From: an uncultured Desulfovibrionaceae bacterium
GTDB lineage: Bacteria; Desulfobacterota; Desulfovibrionia; Desulfovibrionales; Desulfovibrionaceae
Length of the DNA: 64,000 nt
Direction: 5' to 3'
Assembly: GCA_949299515.1 (NCBI GenBank)
Contig: CASGAP010000005.1
Coordinates: forward strand, 1 to 64,000
Shown: in pieces, positions 11,304-64,000 of the stretch
Position numbering within the stretch: the first letter of the stretch is position 1
How the letters are laid out: each line of letters begins with the position of its first letter
Notes under the pieces: model-generated
Databases searched by the model: none
Seen by the model: only the letters and a program-made list of their open reading frames with translations
Told to the model about the DNA's origin: nothing
Program-made: the position numbers and the translations under genes

Positions 11304-12749
11304 GTGAAAAATACTTTCATTTTTTCGTTTGTATATTCAGCACTGTTTTCAGCCGCGTTTTTTTGTGCGGGGCTTTTTTGTTTTGCGGGAAACGGCATGG
11401 CGCACCCTTTGGATTTTACCGTTCTTCAGCTCGGCGGGTCTGCGGAAATTTCTCATGACGCTGCCGCAGACCGGGAAAACCCGCAAAAAACGGAACAGGA
11501 TAAGGAAAGCGTTCCGCATATGCTTATCATCGGCGGCATTCAGGGAGATGAGCCCGGCGGTTTTTCCGCGGCTGCTCTGTTGGGTACGCATTATGAATTT
11601 AAAAACGGTTATGTAACCATTATTCCCAATCTGAATTTTCTTTCCATAATCAACCGCAACCGCGGCTCGCACGGGGACATGAACCGCAAATTTGCCGAAA
11701 TCAGCAAAGACGATCCCGATTATCACGCAGTGAAGCGGGTGCAGGAGCTGATCCGTTCCCCTGAAGTGGATTTGATTTTGAATCTTCATGACGGCGGCGG
11801 TTTTTATCACCCTACTTATATCAATGAATGGCAAAATCCCAAGCGCTGGGGCAATTCCGTGATTATTGACCAGGAAGTGTGCGAAGATGCGGCCTTCGGC
11901 AATTTGGGCGAAATAGGCCGCAGGGTTGTTGCCAAGGTAAACGAACACTTGCTTGCGGACGGCCATTCCTATCATCTGAAAAATACGGAAACGGCCAAGG
12001 GCGATAAGGAAATGGAAAAATCCCTGACGTGGTTCGCCATTGGCCAGGGCAAGCCCGCTTTCGGCGTGGAGGCGACAAAAAATTTAAATGTTGCCGGCAG
12101 GGTTTATTATCATCTGCACGCCATAGAAGCGTTTTTGGACGAAGCGGGCATTTCGTACAGGCGTGATTTTGAACTGACCACCGAAGGCATAAGCAAGGCT
12201 TTGAATACCGATATTTATTTGGGGTTTATGAACAACAGGCTTGTGCTGCCGCTGGACGACATACGCCGTCCGCAGCCGGGTATTTATCCCATGCGGAAAG
12301 ACTGTGACGTCAAAGGAAACAGCCCTATTTTAACCGCAGTTGCGGATAAAGGCTCTATGCAGGTGCATTACGGCAACAACAGGGTGACGAATTTTAAAGT
12401 GGAATGGCTGGAGCTTGACACGTCCATTGACGGTATGTATGTGGAGCTGGACGGCGAGCGGCATTATGCCAAATTCGGGGATATGCTCTATGTGCGCGGG
12501 CACGTGGAGGTTGTTCCCAGAGAAGGTTACAGGCTGAACGCTATCGGCGCCGTTGTCGGGGAAGGACCCCGCGGTGACGAAAGCGGCATTAAAATTTATA
12601 AAAAAGATTTTCAGAAACGGTTTTCCGTTGATGAATTCGGCAGCCAGTATAGGCTGGAAGTGTACGGCAAAAAAGGCTATGCCGGAACTTTTATCCTGAA
12701 TTTTACCGAAAACCTGCCGGAACATCGTGTTTTTTCTCCAATATTATAA
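11304..12749 (+). CDS. Csd4/Pgp1-type D,L-carboxypeptidase (M99 family)
   Basis: This is a zinc carboxypeptidase expected to trim peptidoglycan tripeptides in the periplasm, as Csd4 of Helicobacter and Pgp1 of Campylobacter do in generating helical shape. The 481-residue protein has an N-terminal hydrophobic signal segment (about residues 1-33). It keeps the unusual zinc-binding set of the family: Gln80 and Glu83 in IGGIQGDEPGG, and His162 in NLHDGGGFY. The likely catalytic Glu is Glu256 in GVEATKN. The large C-terminal half fits the beta-sandwich extensions of Csd4. The start is GTG at 11304, with AGCAGGA about 8 bases before it. Its neighbours (sfsA, recR) are not cell-wall genes. Confidence 0.85.
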   Translation: MKNTFIFSFVYSALFSAAFFCAGLFCFAGNGMAHPLDFTVLQLGGSAEISHDAAADRENPQKTEQDKESVPHMLIIGGIQGDEPGGFSAAALLGTHYEFKNGYVTIIPNLNFLSIINRNRGSHGDMNRKFAEISKDDPDYHAVKRVQELIRSPEVDLILNLHDGGGFYHPTYINEWQNPKRWGNSVIIDQEVCEDAAFGNLGEIGRRVVAKVNEHLLADGHSYHLKNTETAKGDKEMEKSLTWFAIGQGKPAFGVEATKNLNVAGRVYYHLHAIEAFLDEAGISYRRDFELTTEGISKALNTDIYLGFMNNRLVLPLDDIRRPQPGIYPMRKDCDVKGNSPILTAVADKGSMQVHYGNNRVTNFKVEWLELDTSIDGMYVELDGERHYAKFGDMLYVRGHVEVVPREGYRLNAIGAVVGEGPRGDESGIKIYKKDFQKRFSVDEFGSQYRLEVYGKKGYAGTFILNFTENLPEHRVFSPIL

Positions 12750-56026: not shown

Positions 56027-56058
56027 AAAAAAAAAGGAGAAAAGCAAAGCTTCTCTCC
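56027..56058 (-). terminator. Intrinsic terminator after trpB
   Basis: On the minus strand GGAGAGAAGC pairs with GCTTTTCTCC around TTT, followed by nine T bases. It ends the trpB transcript, so trpB is a single-gene unit. Confidence 0.9.
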
Positions 56059-56085
56059 CGGGAAAATTTCCGTTTAGCGCACGGC

Positions 56086-57306
56086 TTACGGCATTTGGAT
56101 TTTATTTTCTTTCAGCATGGCGGCTATTTGATCCACATCTTTGTCGCCCCTGCCGGAAAGACATACTAGGATTTTTTTGCCTTTCATGGCCGGTGCGGTT
56201 TTTATGGCATGGGCCAGGGCATGGGCAGATTCCAAAGCGGGGATTATGCCTTGGGTTATTGATAGGGTAAAGAATGCGTCAATGGCTTCTTTGTCGCTTA
56301 CCGCCACGTAGCTGGCTCTGCCTATGTCTTTGAGGTGAGCGTGTTCGGGGCTTACGGAAGGATAGTCCAGACCGGCGGAAATGGAATATACCGGGGCAAC
56401 TTCGCCTTGTTCGTCAAGGCAGACGTAACTTTTAAAGCCGTGCAGTACGGCTTCTTTTCCGTATACCAGGCTTGCTGCGTGCTGACCTGTTTTGTCCCCA
56501 ATGCCGCCCGGCTCCGCGCCGACAAGGGCAACGTTTTCATCGCCGATGAAGTTGGCGAACATTCCGATGGCGTTGGAACCTCCGCCAACGCACGCCACCA
56601 CCATATCGGGCAGAGCGCCCGTCATGTCAAGGAACTGTTCCCGTGCTTCAAAACTGATTACGGATTGGAAATGGCGTACGATTTCCGGATACGGATACGG
56701 GCCCACGGCGGAACCTAAAACATAAAAGCTGTTTTTATCTTTGATATAGGCGTCAAGGGCTTCGTCAACGGCTTCCTTCAGGGTGCGCTGGCCGCTGGTT
56801 GCGGCAATGACTTCCGCGCCCATCATGCGCATTCTCAATACGTTGAGTTCCTGGCGTCTGATGTCTTCTTCGCCCATGTAAACAGTGCATTTGCAGCCGA
56901 AAAGGGCTGCTGTTGCGGCAGTTGCCACGCCGTGCTGGCCGGCGCCCGTTTCTGCGATGATATGGGTTTTGCCCATGCGTTTGGCAAGCAGCATCTGGCC
57001 CAAGGCATTGTTGAGTTTATGGGCGCCCAAGTGGTTCAGGTCTTCGCGTTTGAGGTATATGTCCGCGCCGCCGAGTTGTTTTGATAAATTTTCACAGTAA
57101 AAAATAGGAGTGGGGCGGCCGCTAAAATGCTTGTAAAGAGTGTTTAATTCGGCTAAAAAATCTTTGTCGTTCTTGTAGGTGTTGAAACAGTCGGCAACTT
57201 CGTTGAGCCGGATTTTTATTTCTTCCGGAACAAATTGTCCGCCGTGGCGGCCGTAAAAGCCGAGGGAGTTTTCCTGAGAGGGGGTGCCGTGGGCTTGAGT
57301 AGACAT
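56086..57306 (-). CDS. trpB: Tryptophan synthase beta chain
   Basis: TrpB condenses indole with serine to form tryptophan using PLP. The 406-residue protein shows NSLGFYGRHGGQFVPEE, GRPTPIFYCENL, the PLP lysine (Lys97) in LNHLGAHKLNN, the catalytic Glu119 in AETGAGQHG, GSAVGPYPYPEIVR, CVGGGSNAIG and LSGRGDKD. The Thr usual after LNH is Leu here. It is the TrpB1 type that normally works with TrpA, yet no trpA or other trp gene is adjacent. AAGGAG precedes the ATG. It has a dedicated promoter, leader peptide and attenuator upstream (57345-57503). Confidence 0.96.
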   Translation of the reverse strand: MSTQAHGTPSQENSLGFYGRHGGQFVPEEIKIRLNEVADCFNTYKNDKDFLAELNTLYKHFSGRPTPIFYCENLSKQLGGADIYLKREDLNHLGAHKLNNALGQMLLAKRMGKTHIIAETGAGQHGVATAATAALFGCKCTVYMGEEDIRRQELNVLRMRMMGAEVIAATSGQRTLKEAVDEALDAYIKDKNSFYVLGSAVGPYPYPEIVRHFQSVISFEAREQFLDMTGALPDMVVACVGGGSNAIGMFANFIGDENVALVGAEPGGIGDKTGQHAASLVYGKEAVLHGFKSYVCLDEQGEVAPVYSISAGLDYPSVSPEHAHLKDIGRASYVAVSDKEAIDAFFTLSITQGIIPALESAHALAHAIKTAPAMKGKKILVCLSGRGDKDVDQIAAMLKENKIQMP

Positions 57307-57344
57307 AGTTTTCTCCTTTTTTCCGAACTATGCCTATCAGGGAT

Positions 57345-57371
57345 AAAAAAACGACCGGCAAGTTCGGTCGT
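57345..57371 (-). terminator. Trp attenuator (intrinsic terminator in the trpB leader)
   Basis: On the minus strand ACGACCG (57365-57371) pairs with CGGTCGT (57351-57357) and is followed by seven T bases, some 40 bases before the trpB start. An upstream GGTCG (57404-57408) can pair with the CGACC of the first arm and would block the terminator. This is the geometry of transcription attenuation controlled by the leader peptide at 57414-57467. Confidence 0.8.
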
Positions 57372-57413
57372 AATTTTTATTAGAAATTTGGCTGCAAAAA
57401 ATCCGACCCGTTG

Positions 57414-57467
57414 TTATACGAGCCACCACCAAGAAATATATGAGTGTTGTATTTTTTGCATATTCAT
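57414..57467 (-). CDS. trpL: Trp leader peptide
   Basis: A 17-codon frame encodes MNMQKIQHSYISWWWLV and stops 43 bases before the attenuator stem. Three consecutive TGG codons (57423-57431) are the sensor: charged tRNA-Trp lets the ribosome run through and the terminator forms; starvation stalls it and frees trpB expression. No ribosome binding site is visible and the expected transcript start is at or next to the A of the first ATG, so translation is probably leaderless. An internal ATG at 57461 is an alternative start. Confidence 0.85.
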   Translation of the reverse strand: MNMQKIQHSYISWWWLV

Positions 57468-57474
57468 ACGTACA

Positions 57475-57503
57475 TATATATTTGAAAAATAATCCGCTGT
57501 CAA
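57475..57503 (-). promoter_or_regulatory. Consensus promoter of the trpL-trpB unit
   Basis: On the minus strand TTGACA (57498-57503), a 17-base spacer and TATATA (57475-57480) form one of the best sigma-70 promoters in the window. Its upstream edge lies within 25 bases of the start codon of the divergent tatD gene, so the two transcription units share very little space. Confidence 0.8.
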
Positions 57504-57523: not shown

Positions 57524-58360
57524 ATGGGACATAAAAAGAAAGTGTATATTGATCCGAAAACTCTCGGTCTGCCGCTCGTTGGCTGTGACAGCCACGCCCA
57601 TATCGTAACGCAGCCGCTTTGGGAAGACAGGGACGCGGTTATAGCCCGTGCCGCCGAGGCCGGGGTAAAAACCATAGGGGAAGTGCTGCTGGGGCACAGG
57701 CAGTATGCGGAGCACGCCGAGTATTTTTACGGAAAAGACAATGTTTTTCTGATATACGGCATACATCCCACGGATTTGCTGGAAATTTCGCCTGACGAGC
57801 CGGAACAGGTGCAGGCGGATATTTTGCAGGACAGGCAAGGCAGGCAGAAAATCAAGGCAGTGGGCGAAATAGGTTTGGATTATTATTGGAAAGGCGTTCC
57901 GCAGGATCTGCAGCAGGAATATTTCAGAAAAATGCTGGCTGTTGCCAAAACGTGCGGTCTGCCCGTTGTTATTCACAGCCGCGATGCGTTTGACGATACG
58001 GTAAAAATTCTTTTGGAAGAGGGATTTCGCGGGTATCCGCTGCTGTGGCACTGCTTTGACCGTGACAGGGAATGCGCGCGGACTGTGCTTTCCCACGGCT
58101 GGCACATTTCCATACCCGGTTCCGTAACGTATAAAGCCAATGCCCATGTGCGCGAAGCCCTGCACTGCATTGACAGGGACAGGCTGCTTGTGGAAACGGA
58201 CTGCCCGTACCTTGCGCCCGAACCGTGGCGGGGAAAACCCAACGAACCCGCATTTACGGTATTTACCGCCCAATGCGTTGCTGCCGAGCTTGGCATGGAA
58301 ACCGCCGAGCTGTGGGAACAATGCGGCAATAATGCCAGGAGATTTTTTGGCGCCGAATAA
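57524..58360 (+). CDS. TatD-family metal-dependent DNase
   Basis: The 278-residue TIM-barrel hydrolase starts at 57524 (AAGGAG upstream). Motifs of the family are CDSHAHI, VGEIGLDYYW, VIHSRDAFDD, LWHCFDRD and LVETDCPYLAPEPWRGKPNEP. TatD proteins show 3'-5' exonuclease and DNase activity linked to DNA repair and quality control. An N-terminal extension of about 20 residues precedes the usual start. It is divergent from the trp leader. Confidence 0.93.
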   Translation: MGHKKKVYIDPKTLGLPLVGCDSHAHIVTQPLWEDRDAVIARAAEAGVKTIGEVLLGHRQYAEHAEYFYGKDNVFLIYGIHPTDLLEISPDEPEQVQADILQDRQGRQKIKAVGEIGLDYYWKGVPQDLQQEYFRKMLAVAKTCGLPVVIHSRDAFDDTVKILLEEGFRGYPLLWHCFDRDRECARTVLSHGWHISIPGSVTYKANAHVREALHCIDRDRLLVETDCPYLAPEPWRGKPNEPAFTVFTAQCVAAELGMETAELWEQCGNNARRFFGAE

Positions 58361-58453: not shown

Positions 58454-60439
58454 ATGAAATTTACTTTTCTCAGAAAAATGATCATTCTTGTGCTGTTTCC
58501 GGTTATGCTGATCCTTGTGATTATGTCCGGATTTATCTATTTGAAATCTAATATGATTTTACGGTCAACCATAAGCGAGGAAATGGCGCTGCTCGCAAAA
58601 ACGCAGGGTGAGGCTCTGCGGGCAGCCATTGCGGCTTATAAAGATATGGTTACGGAACTTGCTCATGCGTCGGCCGTAGTCAATGTTGCGGACTGCATTG
58701 CTGCAGGAAGAACACAGGATCTGCCGCTGTATGAAAATGAGGTTGCAGCCAAAATAAAGCGGATAGAAGCCATGTCCGAAGCCTATTTCGGCGTCGGCAT
58801 GACGGACGGCAGCGGCAAAATCGTTTTACATTCCAAGGAAACGCGCATAGGTGAAGATTTTTCAGGCTATGCTTTTGTAAAAAGTGCCCTGCAGGGTCTT
58901 GGCGGTTCGGAAATAGTCAGTCTTGCCGAACACAGGAAAGGTCTTGCGCTTGCCGAGCCCGTGCGCAGCGGCAATACTGTTGTCGGTACGGTTTATATAG
59001 TTCTGGATTTGAATTCCATTGCCGAAGAAACAATTGATCATGTCAGTTTTGCCAACAGCGGCGCCATCGGCGTGCACGACTCAAACGGCGTGCAGATTAT
59101 GCATAAGCACCGTGATTTTATTGATTTGGAAGAAAAGGATACCGAACAGTTCCGGCAGATGTCCGGCAAAAGCACCGGTATTGTTTATTTTACCGACGGC
59201 GGTGCGGACCGTGTTTGGTATTTTTACAATGTTTCGGGCCTGAACTGGTATGTGACGGCTACGGCGGAACGCAGTGATTTGGATAACGGGGTGCGTGAGC
59301 TGTTTTGGGCAAGCACGTTTATTTCCGTAGCCTCCATTGCCGTTCTTTTGGCCATTATTTTCTTTTTCTCCAATCAAACTTCAAAAGCGCTTAAAGGCAT
59401 TGAACGCATTTCCTGCGATGTCAGCGCGGGCAAGCTGAATCTTTCCGACGAAGAACATTTTATTCTTGATACTCTTGGCAAGCGCACCGACGAAATAGGG
59501 GGTATGGCCGTCAGCTTTAAGCAAATGATAGTTGCTCTTATCGAAACTATAAAAGAGGCCAAATCCGCTTACGGCAACGGCATGGCCGAGGCAGCCAAAA
59601 AATTGGAAAAAATCGTAGAGTCAAGTTCCACTGCCACGCAGGAACTTTCTGCTCAAATTCAGGAAAGCAGCAACGGCGCCGAAATGCAGGCCGATAAAAT
59701 CGCCGCAGCCGTAACCGCGGTGGAAGAAATGAACGCAACGATTTTGGAAGTTACGCAAAATACCGTGCAGACGGCAAAAATAGCCAATGATACCAAGGTG
59801 CGCGCGGAAGAAAGCGAAGTTGTGGTTGACAGTTTTATGCAGTCCATGCGTAAAGTGGAAAAAAGTACCGGCACGTTGAAAGAAGACATGACACAGCTTT
59901 CCGATCATGTACAGGATATTAATCAGATTATGGGCGTTATTTCCGATCTTGCCGATCAAACCAATCTGCTGGCTTTGAACGCTGCTATCGAGGCTGCCAG
60001 GGCCGGTGAGTTCGGCCGCGGCTTTGCCGTGGTTGCGGACGAAGTGCGCAAGCTTGCCGAAAAAACCATGGCTTCCACTGTGCGTGTCAGCGATGCCGTT
60101 ATTGCGATTAAAAGCAGTACGGAATCCAGTATGCGTCAGGTTGACGATACCGTGGTTCTTGTCAGTTCCGCCATTGAGCTTGCGGCCAAATGCCACCACG
60201 CTCTTGAAGAGATTATGCATATGGCTGCCGAAAGCGCGGAACGCATAGGTTCCATTGCCGTTGCCAGCGAAGAACAGTCTGCGACCAGTGAAGAAATTAC
60301 GCGCAGGATAGGAGAAATAAACGGTATCGTTTCCCAGACAAGCGATACCATGCGCGAGGCAAATATCGCAATTATGGAACTTGCCAAGCAGGCCGAAGGG
60401 CTTTCTGCTATGGTCGAATCCATGAAAACCGGGTCTTAA
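58454..60439 (+). CDS. Methyl-accepting chemotaxis protein 1
   Basis: This 661-residue transmembrane chemoreceptor has two membrane helices (about residues 9-31 and 283-308) around a periplasmic double-Cache-type sensor domain ([37 protein letters not shown]). A HAMP-like linker and a cytoplasmic signalling domain follow, the latter with the conserved hairpin tip [19 protein letters not shown] and [16 protein letters not shown]. Methylation helices carry [17 protein letters not shown]. No C-terminal CheR-binding pentapeptide is present. It probably couples through the CheW at 42907-43422. The ligand is unknown. Confidence 0.95.
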
Positions 60440-60469
60440 TGGCCGAACAGTTACAGGGTTGGAGAGTAT

Positions 60470-62452
60470 ATGCAGTTAACATTTTTCAAAAAAATGAGCT
60501 TGTTGATTTTGGCTCCTATTATCGTTGTAATGATAGCAATGTCTGTTTTTACCTATATTCAGGCTAAAAATGCACTGCACGGGACGCTGCAGGAACAGTT
60601 GTCCGCATTGGTGACAACGCAGGGAGAAAGTTTCAGCGCGCTGGCTCTTGCATACAGAAACAGCGTTAAAGAGCTGGCTGAAGATAATGTTGTGGAAGAA
60701 GTGACCAATGCTTTTGCTACCGACAATACGGACTGGATTTCCTTGTATAAAGCCGATGTCGATGATAGAATAGCCCGCGTGGCGGAGGCTTTTGAAAGCA
60801 TTTATGCCGCCGGCATAGTGGACGGCAGCGGCAAAATCATCATGGCTTCCAAGGAAGAGCTTATCGGCCGTGATTTTATGGGGTACAAAGCGGTAAGCTC
60901 CGCTCTTGCGGGCAGCTGTTCACCCTCTGTGCTGAAACTCGGCGAACATTCCATGGGCCTTATTCTTGCTCATGCCATTCATAATTTTGAAGAAAAAACC
61001 GTGGGCGGCGCATTTCTTATTTTGGATTTAAACGTGCTTGCCACGCGTACCATTGACTATGTTTCGTTCGCAAAATCGGGCGCTGCCGGCGTGCATGATG
61101 CCGAGGGCGTGCAGATTATGCATAAAAATCGCGAGTATGTAGGGTTGGAAGAAGCAGACTCCGCGCAGTTTAAAGGTATGGAAGGCAAGCGTTCCGGCGT
61201 GGTGTATTATGATTTTGAAGGTGACAGGAAAATCTGCTATTTTTACTTTATTCCGTGGCTGAACTGGTATCTTTCCCTGCCTGTTTTGGAAAGCGATTTG
61301 TACGCAAGCGTTACCGATCTTTTGTACGGAACAATAATTATTGCATTTATTGTTATCAACTTCTTCGGTATTCTTATTCTTTTGTTCGCGCGGTCCACTT
61401 CCAAAGCTCTCGGCGGCATTGAAACCATTTCCGAAGAAGTGAGCGGCGGCAAACATAATATGACCGAACAGGAATTTGCCCTGCTTGACAGCATTGCCCG
61501 CCGTTCCGACGAAATCGGCGGCTTGGCAAAAAGTTTCAAAACAATGATACAGGAACTTGTGGAAACCATCAAGGCCGCAAAAGAAGCCCACAGAAACGGA
61601 ATGCACGAGGCGGCGTATCAGCTTGAAGGCGTGGTAAATTCCACTTCGGCGGCAACTCAGGAGCTTTCCGCGCAAATCCAGGAAAGCAGCAACGGCGCTC
61701 AGCTGCAGGCGGACAGAATTGCCGCGGCCGTAACCGCAGTGGAAGAAATGAACGCAACCATTATGGAAGTTTCCCAAAATACGCTGCAAACGGCGCAGAT
61801 AGCCAATGATACCAGAGTAAAGGCAGAAGAGAGCGAAGTTGTGGTTACGGACTTTATGGGTGCTATCAGCAAGGTGGACAAGAGTACGGCCGTGCTGAAA
61901 AACGATATGGGCAAACTTTCCGAACACGTACAGAACATCAATCAGATAATGGGCGTTATTTCCGACCTTGCGGATCAAACGAATCTGCTGGCGCTTAACG
62001 CTGCCATTGAAGCCGCCAGGGCTGGCGAAGCAGGCAAAGGCTTTGCCGTTGTTGCGGACGAAGTGCGCAAGCTTGCCGAAAAGACCATGGCTTCCACGGT
62101 GCGGGTAAACGATGCGGTTATTTCCATTCAGGGAAGCGCCCGGTCAAGCCTGCATCAGGTGGCGGATACCGTGGAGCAGGTAAACAATGCCATTGCTCTT
62201 GCGGAAAAATGTCAGCAGGCGCTTAACGAAATTATGCATATGGCAAGCGAAAGCGCAGAACGTATAGGTTCCATTGCCGTAGCCAGCGAACAGCAGTCCG
62301 CAACAAGCGAAGAAATCACCAAAACCATAAGTGAAATCAATGAAATCGTTTCCCGGACTTCCGTAACCATGAACGAGGCAAATACGGCAATTATGGAAGT
62401 GGCAAGGCAGTCCGAACAGCTTTCGGCCATGGTAACGAGAATGAAATCATAA
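60470..62452 (+). CDS. Methyl-accepting chemotaxis protein 2
   Basis: This is a paralogue of the preceding receptor with the same order: membrane helix (about 9-31), double-Cache sensor ([37 protein letters not shown]), second helix near residues 280-305, and a signalling domain almost identical to MCP1 over its C-terminal half. The sensor parts are more diverged, so the two probably recognise different ligands. The gap to MCP1 is 30 bases with GGAGAG before the ATG; it is likely co-transcribed with it. Confidence 0.95.
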
Positions 62453-62458
62453 AACGGC

Positions 62459-62485
62459 TAATGATTTTTAAATATAAGCCGATAT
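62459..62485 (+). promoter_or_regulatory. Sigma-28 (FliA)-type promoter of the yjfB-MCP3 pair
   Basis: TAAT(GATT), 15 bases from TAAT to the -10, then GCCGATAT fits the FliA pattern. It begins just after the MCP2 stop codon and lies about 30 bases before the small gene at 62516. Confidence 0.6.
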
Positions 62486-62515
62486 GGGGGTATATAGAAA
62501 AAATGGGAGGCGATT

Positions 62516-62695
62516 ATGGAAATTGACGGCAATTCTTTAAATACGGTTCAGGGCCAGTTTGCTTTGGGCATGGCTCAAAAAAGTATGGATGTTACGGCGG
62601 ATCTTGCCAACAAGCTGATGCAGGGTTCTTTGGAATCCACAGAGAATCTTCGTGCAGAGGACGGTATCGGCACAAAAGTTAATTTAACCGTGTAA
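62516..62695 (+). CDS. YjfB-like putative motility protein
   Basis: This is a 59-residue protein starting MEIDGNSLNTVQGQFALGMA with a short helix-forming core (AQKSMDVTADLANKLMQGS). The size, the N-terminal M-[DE]-I motif and the A-x-x-K-S-M-D helix resemble the YjfB putative motility family. GGGAGG precedes the ATG, and a FliA-type promoter and a chemoreceptor flank it, which supports a motility role. The family assignment is moderate. Confidence 0.65.
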   Translation: MEIDGNSLNTVQGQFALGMAQKSMDVTADLANKLMQGSLESTENLRAEDGIGTKVNLTV

Positions 62696-62716
62696 TGTGC
62701 TGTAAGTGAGAAAGAT

Positions 62717-64000
62717 ATGAAATTTTCATTTTCCAAAAAAATGGCGGCATTTATTTTACTGCCCGTAGTCGTTGTTCTTGTTGTAATGACATTTTTTTCT
62801 TACACAAAAGCAAGAGGCACGCTTTCGGAAACCATTGACAGTCAGCTTACCAACATGGTTAAAATCCAGGGCGAGGCCATTTACTCAAATATGCTTATTT
62901 ACCGTGCGCTGACGGAGGAAACTTCTCAGGATTACGGTGTTGTTAATTTTTTAATGGCTTATGCTGCCGGTGATGAAGAGCGCAAACAGCAGTATCTGCC
63001 CATTGTCAATGCGCGCATGGACCGCTTGGTGGAAAATTTCAGCGGCATTGACGAAGTGGTTGTGCTGAATATGCAGGGCGTTGCTTTGGCGGATTCTACC
63101 GACAGCAATATCGGTAAGGATTTCAGCAAAACAGATTTCGTTAAAGGTGCCATGAACGGCGAAGAAGGGCACAGAATTATTCCGGCAGGCAGCAAGCGGG
63201 TAAACTTTGCCATTTGTTATCCTGTGCGCGACCCGAACGGCTCTAAAGTTATCGGGTATATTTTTACCAGTATTAATCTTGATCATATTACCAAGAGAAC
63301 CCTTGACAACGTTAATTTTTCTGCCACGGGAACGGCTGTTGTTTTCAATGATCAGGGCTATATCGTCATGCATAAAAACCGTGACATTGTCGGCGAAAAC
63401 AGAAGCGATACCAAGGAATATCAGGAAGTCAGCCGCGTGAAAACCGGTTTTATCGAGTATGAATATCAGGGCAGGCTGCGCGTTGCGTACGTGTATGAAC
63501 TTAAATGGCTGAACTGGTATCTGTCATTCCCGGTATGGGAAGACGATATTTTTGCGGGCGTGTATGAATTATACAGCAACAGCCTGGTAATCTGCGCCGT
63601 ATCATTGTTCGTTCTTTTGCTTATCATTATTGTTTTTGCAAAAAGCATTGCTGCGGCTCTCGGCAAAATCGACAAAGTTTCCGCCAAAGTTGCCGGCGGC
63701 GATATGAACTTGTCCGAGCAGGAAAACGACGATTTGCAGAAACTTTCGGGCCGTACCGATGAAATAGGCAGTCTTGCCGACAGTTTCAGCAAAATGATAG
63801 TTGCGCTGCTGCAGACCATACAGGAAGCGAAAAACGCCTATAAAGTCGGCATGAACGAAGCAGCGGAAAAGCTGCAGGATGTTGTGGAAGCCACAAGCGC
63901 CGCAACGCACGAACTGTCCGCGCAGATACAGGAAAGCAGCAACGGTGCGGATATGCAGGCTCAGCGTATATCCGAAACGGTTACCGCGGTTGAAGAAATG
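62717..64000 (+). CDS. Methyl-accepting chemotaxis protein 3 (cut by the window end)
   Basis: The third receptor starts at 62717 (MKFSFSKKMAAFILLP) and runs off the window after 428 codons. It shows the first membrane helix, a double-Cache sensor (LNMQGVALADSTDSNIGKDF, GTAVVFNDQGYIVMHKN), the second helix near residues 290-315 and the start of the signalling domain ([22 protein letters not shown]). The sensor is clearly different from MCP1 and MCP2. It follows the YjfB-like gene by 21 bases. Confidence 0.95.
   Translation, partial: MKFSFSKKMAAFILLPVVVVLVVMTFFSYTKARGTLSETIDSQLTNMVKIQGEAIYSNMLIYRALTEETSQDYGVVNFLMAYAAGDEERKQQYLPIVNARMDRLVENFSGIDEVVVLNMQGVALADSTDSNIGKDFSKTDFVKGAMNGEEGHRIIPAGSKRVNFAICYPVRDPNGSKVIGYIFTSINLDHITKRTLDNVNFSATGTAVVFNDQGYIVMHKNRDIVGENRSDTKEYQEVSRVKTGFIEYEYQGRLRVAYVYELKWLNWYLSFPVWEDDIFAGVYELYSNSLVICAVSLFVLLLIIIVFAKSIAAALGKIDKVSAKVAGGDMNLSEQENDDLQKLSGRTDEIGSLADSFSKMIVALLQTIQEAKNAYKVGMNEAAEKLQDVVEATSAATHELSAQIQESSNGADMQAQRISETVTAVEEM

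Follow-up and report, generated by a model that had tools for sequence, protein, structure and literature searches.

A predicted leaderless trp-type attenuator in front of a stand-alone trpB in Desulfovibrionales

The stretch of DNA analysed here (the window, 64,000 nucleotides) very probably contains a ribosome-mediated, trp-type transcription attenuator that has a leaderless leader peptide and switches a stand-alone trpB, most likely for indole salvage. What we read from the sequence is the anatomy of this element, its conservation in relatives, the concerted changes of its pairing arms, the signature of a leaderless start and the identity of the target gene.

Anatomy of the attenuator block

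The elements of the block and of the gene behind it are as follows.

57503-57344, minus strand: attenuator block, read directly, with promoter, leader ORF, 1:2 hairpin, terminator and 2:3 antiterminator
57498-57503, minus strand: -35 box TTGACA (from sequence and relatives)
57475-57480, minus strand: -10 box TATATA, after a 17-nt spacer, beginning at -13 relative to the ATG
57467, minus strand: predicted transcription start, the A of the leader ATG (from promoter spacing, the pyrimidine at -1 and the lack of a Shine-Dalgarno sequence)
57414-57467, minus strand: trpL-like leader ORF of 17 codons, MNMQKIQHSYISWWWLV and stop, ending WWWLV (from sequence; WWW/WWR at the same place in relatives)
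57423-57431, minus strand: three tandem Trp codons, UGG UGG UGG (from sequence)
57404-57425, minus strand: 1:2 hairpin, arm 1 at 57425-57418 and arm 2 at 57411-57404, -9.0 kcal/mol
57365-57408, minus strand: 2:3 antiterminator, GGUCG (57408-57404) with CGACC, lengthened by U/A tracts
57344-57371, minus strand: 3:4 intrinsic terminator, ACGACCG-loop-CGGUCGU (hairpin 57371-57351) plus T tract
57393-57460, minus strand: outer stem that lengthens the 1:2 structure by pairing early codons of the leader (GCAAAAAA) with UUUUUUGC, which lies downstream of arm 2
57311-57317, minus strand: Shine-Dalgarno sequence AGGAGAA of trpB (from sequence and relatives)
56086-57306, minus strand: stand-alone trpB, tryptophan synthase beta subunit, 406 aa (TIGR00263)
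56035-56059, minus strand: strong terminator 3' of trpB (from a terminator scan)

Read along the minus strand, TTGACA is followed by 17 nt, TATATA, seven nt and then the leader ATG, and the ORF runs ATG AAT ATG CAA AAA ATA CAA CAC TCA TAT ATT TCT TGG TGG TGG CTC GTA TAA. A preliminary description of this DNA had reported a consensus promoter, a 17-codon peptide ending WWWLV, an intrinsic terminator with a T tract, a segment at 57404-57408 able to pair with the first terminator arm, and a single trpB closed by its own strong terminator. The promoter boxes lie where it placed them, the peptide agrees base for base, the T tract follows the terminator hairpin, GGTCG is complementary to CGACC, and trpB is shut off by the terminator at 56059-56035.

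The 1:2 hairpin covers the last Trp codons and the stop codon of the leader ORF, the stop sitting in its loop. When arm 1 is masked, as by a ribosome, and the transcript ends 3' at arm 3, folding predicts the antiterminator (-9.9 kcal/mol). In the window sequence the 3:4 structure is more stable than 2:3, and antitermination must therefore depend on which arm is made first, as it does in other attenuators. The leader as a whole folds to -32.4 kcal/mol (z = -2.5). Since that fold beats 196 of 200 shuffles, TGGTGGTGGCTC occurs only once in the window's genome and the element is kept in about 90 genomes, these features are far beyond chance. A simple sigma-70 scan omits the leader promoter, as its rule demands T as the sixth base of the -10 box; support for the promoter is consequently comparative.

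A TatD-family nuclease gene (tatD, 57524-58360, plus strand) starts divergently, 20 nt from the leader -35 box, and to judge from this arrangement its own promoter must overlap the trpB leader region. Three large methyl-accepting chemotaxis-like genes follow one another in tandem at 58454-64000 (plus strand).

Our inferences on how the element regulates, in what kinetic order its arms pair and how it serves indole salvage are as follows. Transcription would begin at the A of the leader ATG, leaving a bare 5' AUG onto which a ribosome would load. With charged tRNA-Trp in ample supply, the ribosome would reach the stop codon in the 1:2 loop and cover arm 2, whereupon the 3:4 terminator would form and trpB would be off; with no translation, the 1:2 hairpin and the outer stem would form and transcription would again terminate. 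With charged tRNA-Trp scarce, the ribosome would stall on the UGG run and mask arm 1; arm 2 would pair with arm 3 ahead of the synthesis of arm 4, and transcription would run on into trpB. The TrpB switched on in this way would make tryptophan from indole and serine.

Conservation and concerted change of the arms

A covariance model of the attenuator block (R1), built from 17 relatives and run on 348 genomes of the order Desulfovibrionales, returned 90 strong copies in 88 of those genomes, which span many genera and at least three families. All but two of the strong copies (88/90) precede the same clade of stand-alone TrpB: 87 stand before a protein 60-100% identical to the window TrpB by an automatic test, and one more (L011) does so by direct reading. 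The remaining two (L202 and L207) precede another gene, discussed below. Two more copies (L210 and L211), weak in R1 score, plainly belong to this type and likewise stand before TrpB. Similarly, 18 of the 20 trpB loci that come closest to the window TrpB in a sample of 59 genomes have the block of promoter, leader, hairpin and terminator upstream; at L012 (G012) and L021 (G008) the stand-alone trpB is kept with no WW leader. Among the matches listed in a genome-contig search for related loci, one record came from the order (L045).

A leader containing WW is present in 89 of the 90 copies, with WWW or WWR in nearly all; the exception, L180, reads WRRL. Relatives keep the frame of the ORF and, at arm 1, the WWW/WWR run; elsewhere the peptide drifts, and the leader peptides have in common just the W run and loose ends. 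The alignment of trpB upstream regions that the preliminary description called for thus finds Trp codons and hairpins conserved in close and distant relatives alike, and the loss of both in close relatives, which it had named as the result that would count against it, was not seen. Its proposed search for other WWW leaders gave a narrower answer: the pattern TTGAC-N-ATG-N-TGGTGG retrieves mostly chance matches inside coding sequence, and the trpB leader is the one credible match in the window's genome.

The pairing arms themselves vary. On the model-based alignment 83% of cells are paired, against 37-53% when the partner is slid, and we counted 115 changes on both sides of a pair against 51 +/- 5 in shuffles, both counts including related sequences. 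Arm 2 is misaligned in family f4 in alignment A4, which makes the 1:2 figures conservative. The 1:2 stems differ widely and stay complementary (GGCUCUU/AAGAGCC, GCGGCAUG/CAUGCCGU, UGGCACAC/GUGUGCCG and GGCGCU/AGCGCC). Arms 2 and 3 co-vary as well, as GCCGYGG:CCGCGGC in most leaders, GUCGCGG:CCGCGAC in genus g8 and GGUCGGAUUUUUU:AAAAAUUACGACC in the window's genus, where arm 2 has a pairing energy of -9.7 kcal/mol with the arm 3 native to it and of -5 to -7 kcal/mol with that of other lineages. For the outer stem, own pairing gives -13.5 kcal/mol against -9.2 across sequences (90 leaders). The arms, then, change in concert between lineages as far as these alignments show, and the E. coli-type layout named in the preliminary description is upheld by alternative pairings and Trp codons kept in relatives near and far. 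An arm 1:arm 3 pairing proposed by RNAalifold on a MAFFT alignment (A2) had no covariation and was dropped; MAFFT misaligns arm 2.

The start of the leader and competing readings

Automatic placement finds TTGAC(A/G/T) 35-39 nt ahead of the ATG in 89 of the 90 leaders, and in the ninetieth (L180) TTGACA was found before the leader by eye; this distance puts the predicted transcription start on or beside the A. The best -10 candidate begins at -12 or -13 in 61 of the 90. Position -1 is a pyrimidine in 98% of leaders (C 70%, T 28%), and a pyrimidine followed by a purine is a typical transcription start. A Shine-Dalgarno-like motif precedes 5 of the 90 leaders as against 74 of 87 trpB genes, and in the window no ribosome binding site is found before the leader ORF. 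Taken together, these features suggest that translation of the leader peptide begins at the very 5' end of the transcript and that this leaderless start is conserved. The preliminary description had predicted a start on the first leader ATG with no ribosome binding site, with which spacing and relatives agree. It had also called such a start unusual for a ribosome-controlled attenuator; unusual it is, but not without precedent, leaderless Trp leader peptides being known from trpL of Sinorhizobium meliloti (PMC7298713) and from trpL1 and trpL2 of Streptomyces lividans, which stand before monocistronic trpE and trpS (PMC8079986).

It could be held that the attenuator is the same but not leaderless, with a promoter farther upstream, a 5' UTR bound by the ribosome and an incidental TTGACA; with tatD starting divergently at 57524, there are other promoters in the vicinity. 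The constant distance of TTGAC from the ATG in the strong relatives, the -10-like box in most of them, the C or T at -1 and the rarity of Shine-Dalgarno-like motifs all speak against this, and we think it improbable. Still harder to credit is a riboswitch-like RNA, with a ligand or protein as its binding partner, or a terminator that is fixed and gives constant partial read-through, the Trp codons being incidental in either case: their frame, run and position at arm 1 are kept while the peptide around them drifts. A "trpB motif" of Firmicutes and Fusobacteria, with two hairpins and an antiterminator, is listed as a riboswitch candidate (RF04312; PMC11109978), and the window (57340-57459) matches it over its full length, but at 19 bits against a cut-off of 59; the relatives tested match RF04312 at neither threshold, and the window leader has no significant match to any other Rfam cis-element. 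Finally, the terminated leader RNA or the peptide might also act in trans, like rnTrpL/peTrpL of S. meliloti, whose leaderless architecture is the one predicted here (PMC7298713). The leader peptides have too little in common beyond the W run to favor such a function, and we regard it as unlikely. A ribosome-mediated attenuator with a leaderless start accounts best for what is conserved.

It is worthwhile to set this attenuator beside known systems. Like E. coli trpL, it has a short ORF whose tandem Trp codons lie at arm 1, alternative pairings (1:2, 2:3 and 3:4) that exclude one another and an intrinsic terminator before a Trp gene, the likeness resting on layout; unlike E. coli trpL, it has no Shine-Dalgarno sequence, an ATG at the predicted +1, three UGG codons where E. 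coli has two, a stop codon in the 1:2 loop, an outer stem to the early codons and one stand-alone trpB under its control. With S. meliloti trpL/rnTrpL it shares a Trp-rich leader ORF at the (here predicted) transcript start and the lack of a Shine-Dalgarno sequence, whereas the S. meliloti leader belongs to Alphaproteobacteria, controls trpE(G) and gives a terminated RNA that acts in trans. S. lividans trpL1 (MFAHSTRNWWWTAHPAAH) and trpL2 are Trp-codon ORFs of the leaderless kind predicted here, each before a monocistronic Trp gene and with WWW in trpL1, but they belong to Actinomycetota, have trpE and trpS as targets and are unrelated in sequence. RF04312 resembles the window in having two hairpins, the second a terminator, with the antiterminator on the right side of the first, and it sometimes stands before trpB; it differs in occurring in other phyla, mostly before ABC transporter genes, and the window falls below its cut-off. 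The T-box (RF00230) also senses tRNA charging through a choice of terminator or antiterminator, but it binds tRNA directly, with no translating ribosome, and an Rfam scan found no RF00230 match at the trpB leader. Rfam membership of the trpB leader was set aside, no family reaching its gathering threshold on the window.

Every feature of the trpB attenuator has a precedent, and leaderless Trp attenuators are already known. To go by the literature searched, which covered few subscription papers, four things seem not to have been described before: the target gene, the range of taxa, the outer stem and the setting in salvage. That literature held no description of a Trp leader peptide or trpB attenuation in Desulfovibrio or delta-proteobacteria. 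A reconstruction of metal-reducing delta-proteobacteria (PMC545781) does not mention tryptophan, and a survey of premature terminators (PMC2965389) mentions neither Desulfovibrio nor trpB.

Probable indole salvage and the rest of the pathway

The window TrpB matches TIGR00263 trpB with 557 bits against a cut-off of 392. In a tree that includes related sequences, the sampled stand-alone TrpB proteins lie on one side of a fully supported branch, apart from the operon TrpB of the order. Neither trpA nor trpC was detected in the congeners G001-G005, of which G003 is complete (2.17 Mb); G001, G002, G003 and G005 keep leader and trpB, and G004 is without either. The same two genes were undetected in G013 and G016, from other genera, which keep leader and trpB. 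A trpB without trpA and the upstream pathway is accordingly found in G001, G002, G003, G005, G013 and G016, and not in the window's own genome (G000). No trpA match was found in 14 leader-bearing genomes, six of them judged by absence among the listed matches; eight of the 14 are at least 90% complete, and absence in the incomplete genomes may be missing data. Because many carriers have lost trpA, a salvage role is the most likely one: the leader probably controls recovery of tryptophan from indole, which would best explain a lone TrpB regulated by Trp-tRNA.

The window's genome (1.76 Mb, 91% complete, from a gut sulfidogen) needs separate consideration. The preliminary description had called its trpB an orphan. 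No trpA is nearby, but the genome search that it proposed did find one, on another contig (G000:C10), in a complete trpEGDCFBA operon with a second trpB. This trp operon (L041 11647-5163, minus strand) stands behind a T-box leader (11662-12021), which before trpE matches RF00230 with 76 bits (E 9e-17), below the Rfam cut-off of 93, and has a 135-nt insert. The operon TrpB groups with Bacillota, Olsenella and Alistipes and not with the order, and operon and T-box regulator alike were apparently acquired horizontally, to go by this grouping. With a complete trp operon present, the stand-alone trpB of this genome is not obligatorily a salvage enzyme.

The stand-alone TrpB might instead be a second beta subunit for a normal TrpAB complex, raised under Trp limitation. 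That trpA is present in most leader-bearing genomes, the window's included, fits such a role, whereas the eight leader-bearing genomes at least 90% complete in which trpA is undetected would have no TrpAB complex to serve; we consider this alternative possible, though rather unlikely, and indole salvage the better account.

A wider role for the leader can be proposed from its other targets. In genus g9 a second leader copy (L202:1651-1786, minus strand; L207:207-338, plus strand) precedes a PaaK-like phenylacetate/aryl-acid CoA ligase. One of the two g9 carriers is G013, where an indolepyruvate oxidoreductase alpha subunit scores above its cut-off, and a route from indoleacetate to Trp is conceivable there. 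Outside the order, four weaker R1 leaders with WWW, hairpin and terminator (L219-L222, near base 1501) occur in other families of the phylum, some of them near-leaderless; from their translations, the genes behind them look like trpS, an aminotransferase, a TrpB2-type gene and trpD. Our tentative suggestion, about which we have more doubt than confidence, is that the leaderless Trp attenuator is the control of a Desulfovibrionales salvage regulon, in which a lone TrpB would convert indole to Trp where de novo synthesis is lost and the g9 duplicate would control an aryl-acid CoA ligase that could feed indoleacetate back to Trp via indolepyruvate oxidoreductase.

With this element, Desulfovibrionales and, via the weaker matches, other families of the phylum would join the groups with leaderless amino-acid attenuators. 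Its roughly 90 natural variants with co-changing arms are good material on how a ribosome that starts on a bare 5' AUG keeps step with RNA polymerase. A single cell with the window's genome would sense the charging of Trp-tRNA by two unrelated devices, its native attenuator and a T-box that was apparently imported. For sulfidogens without tryptophan synthesis, the attenuator offers a hypothesis of regulated indole salvage, which bears on indole cross-feeding in the gut.
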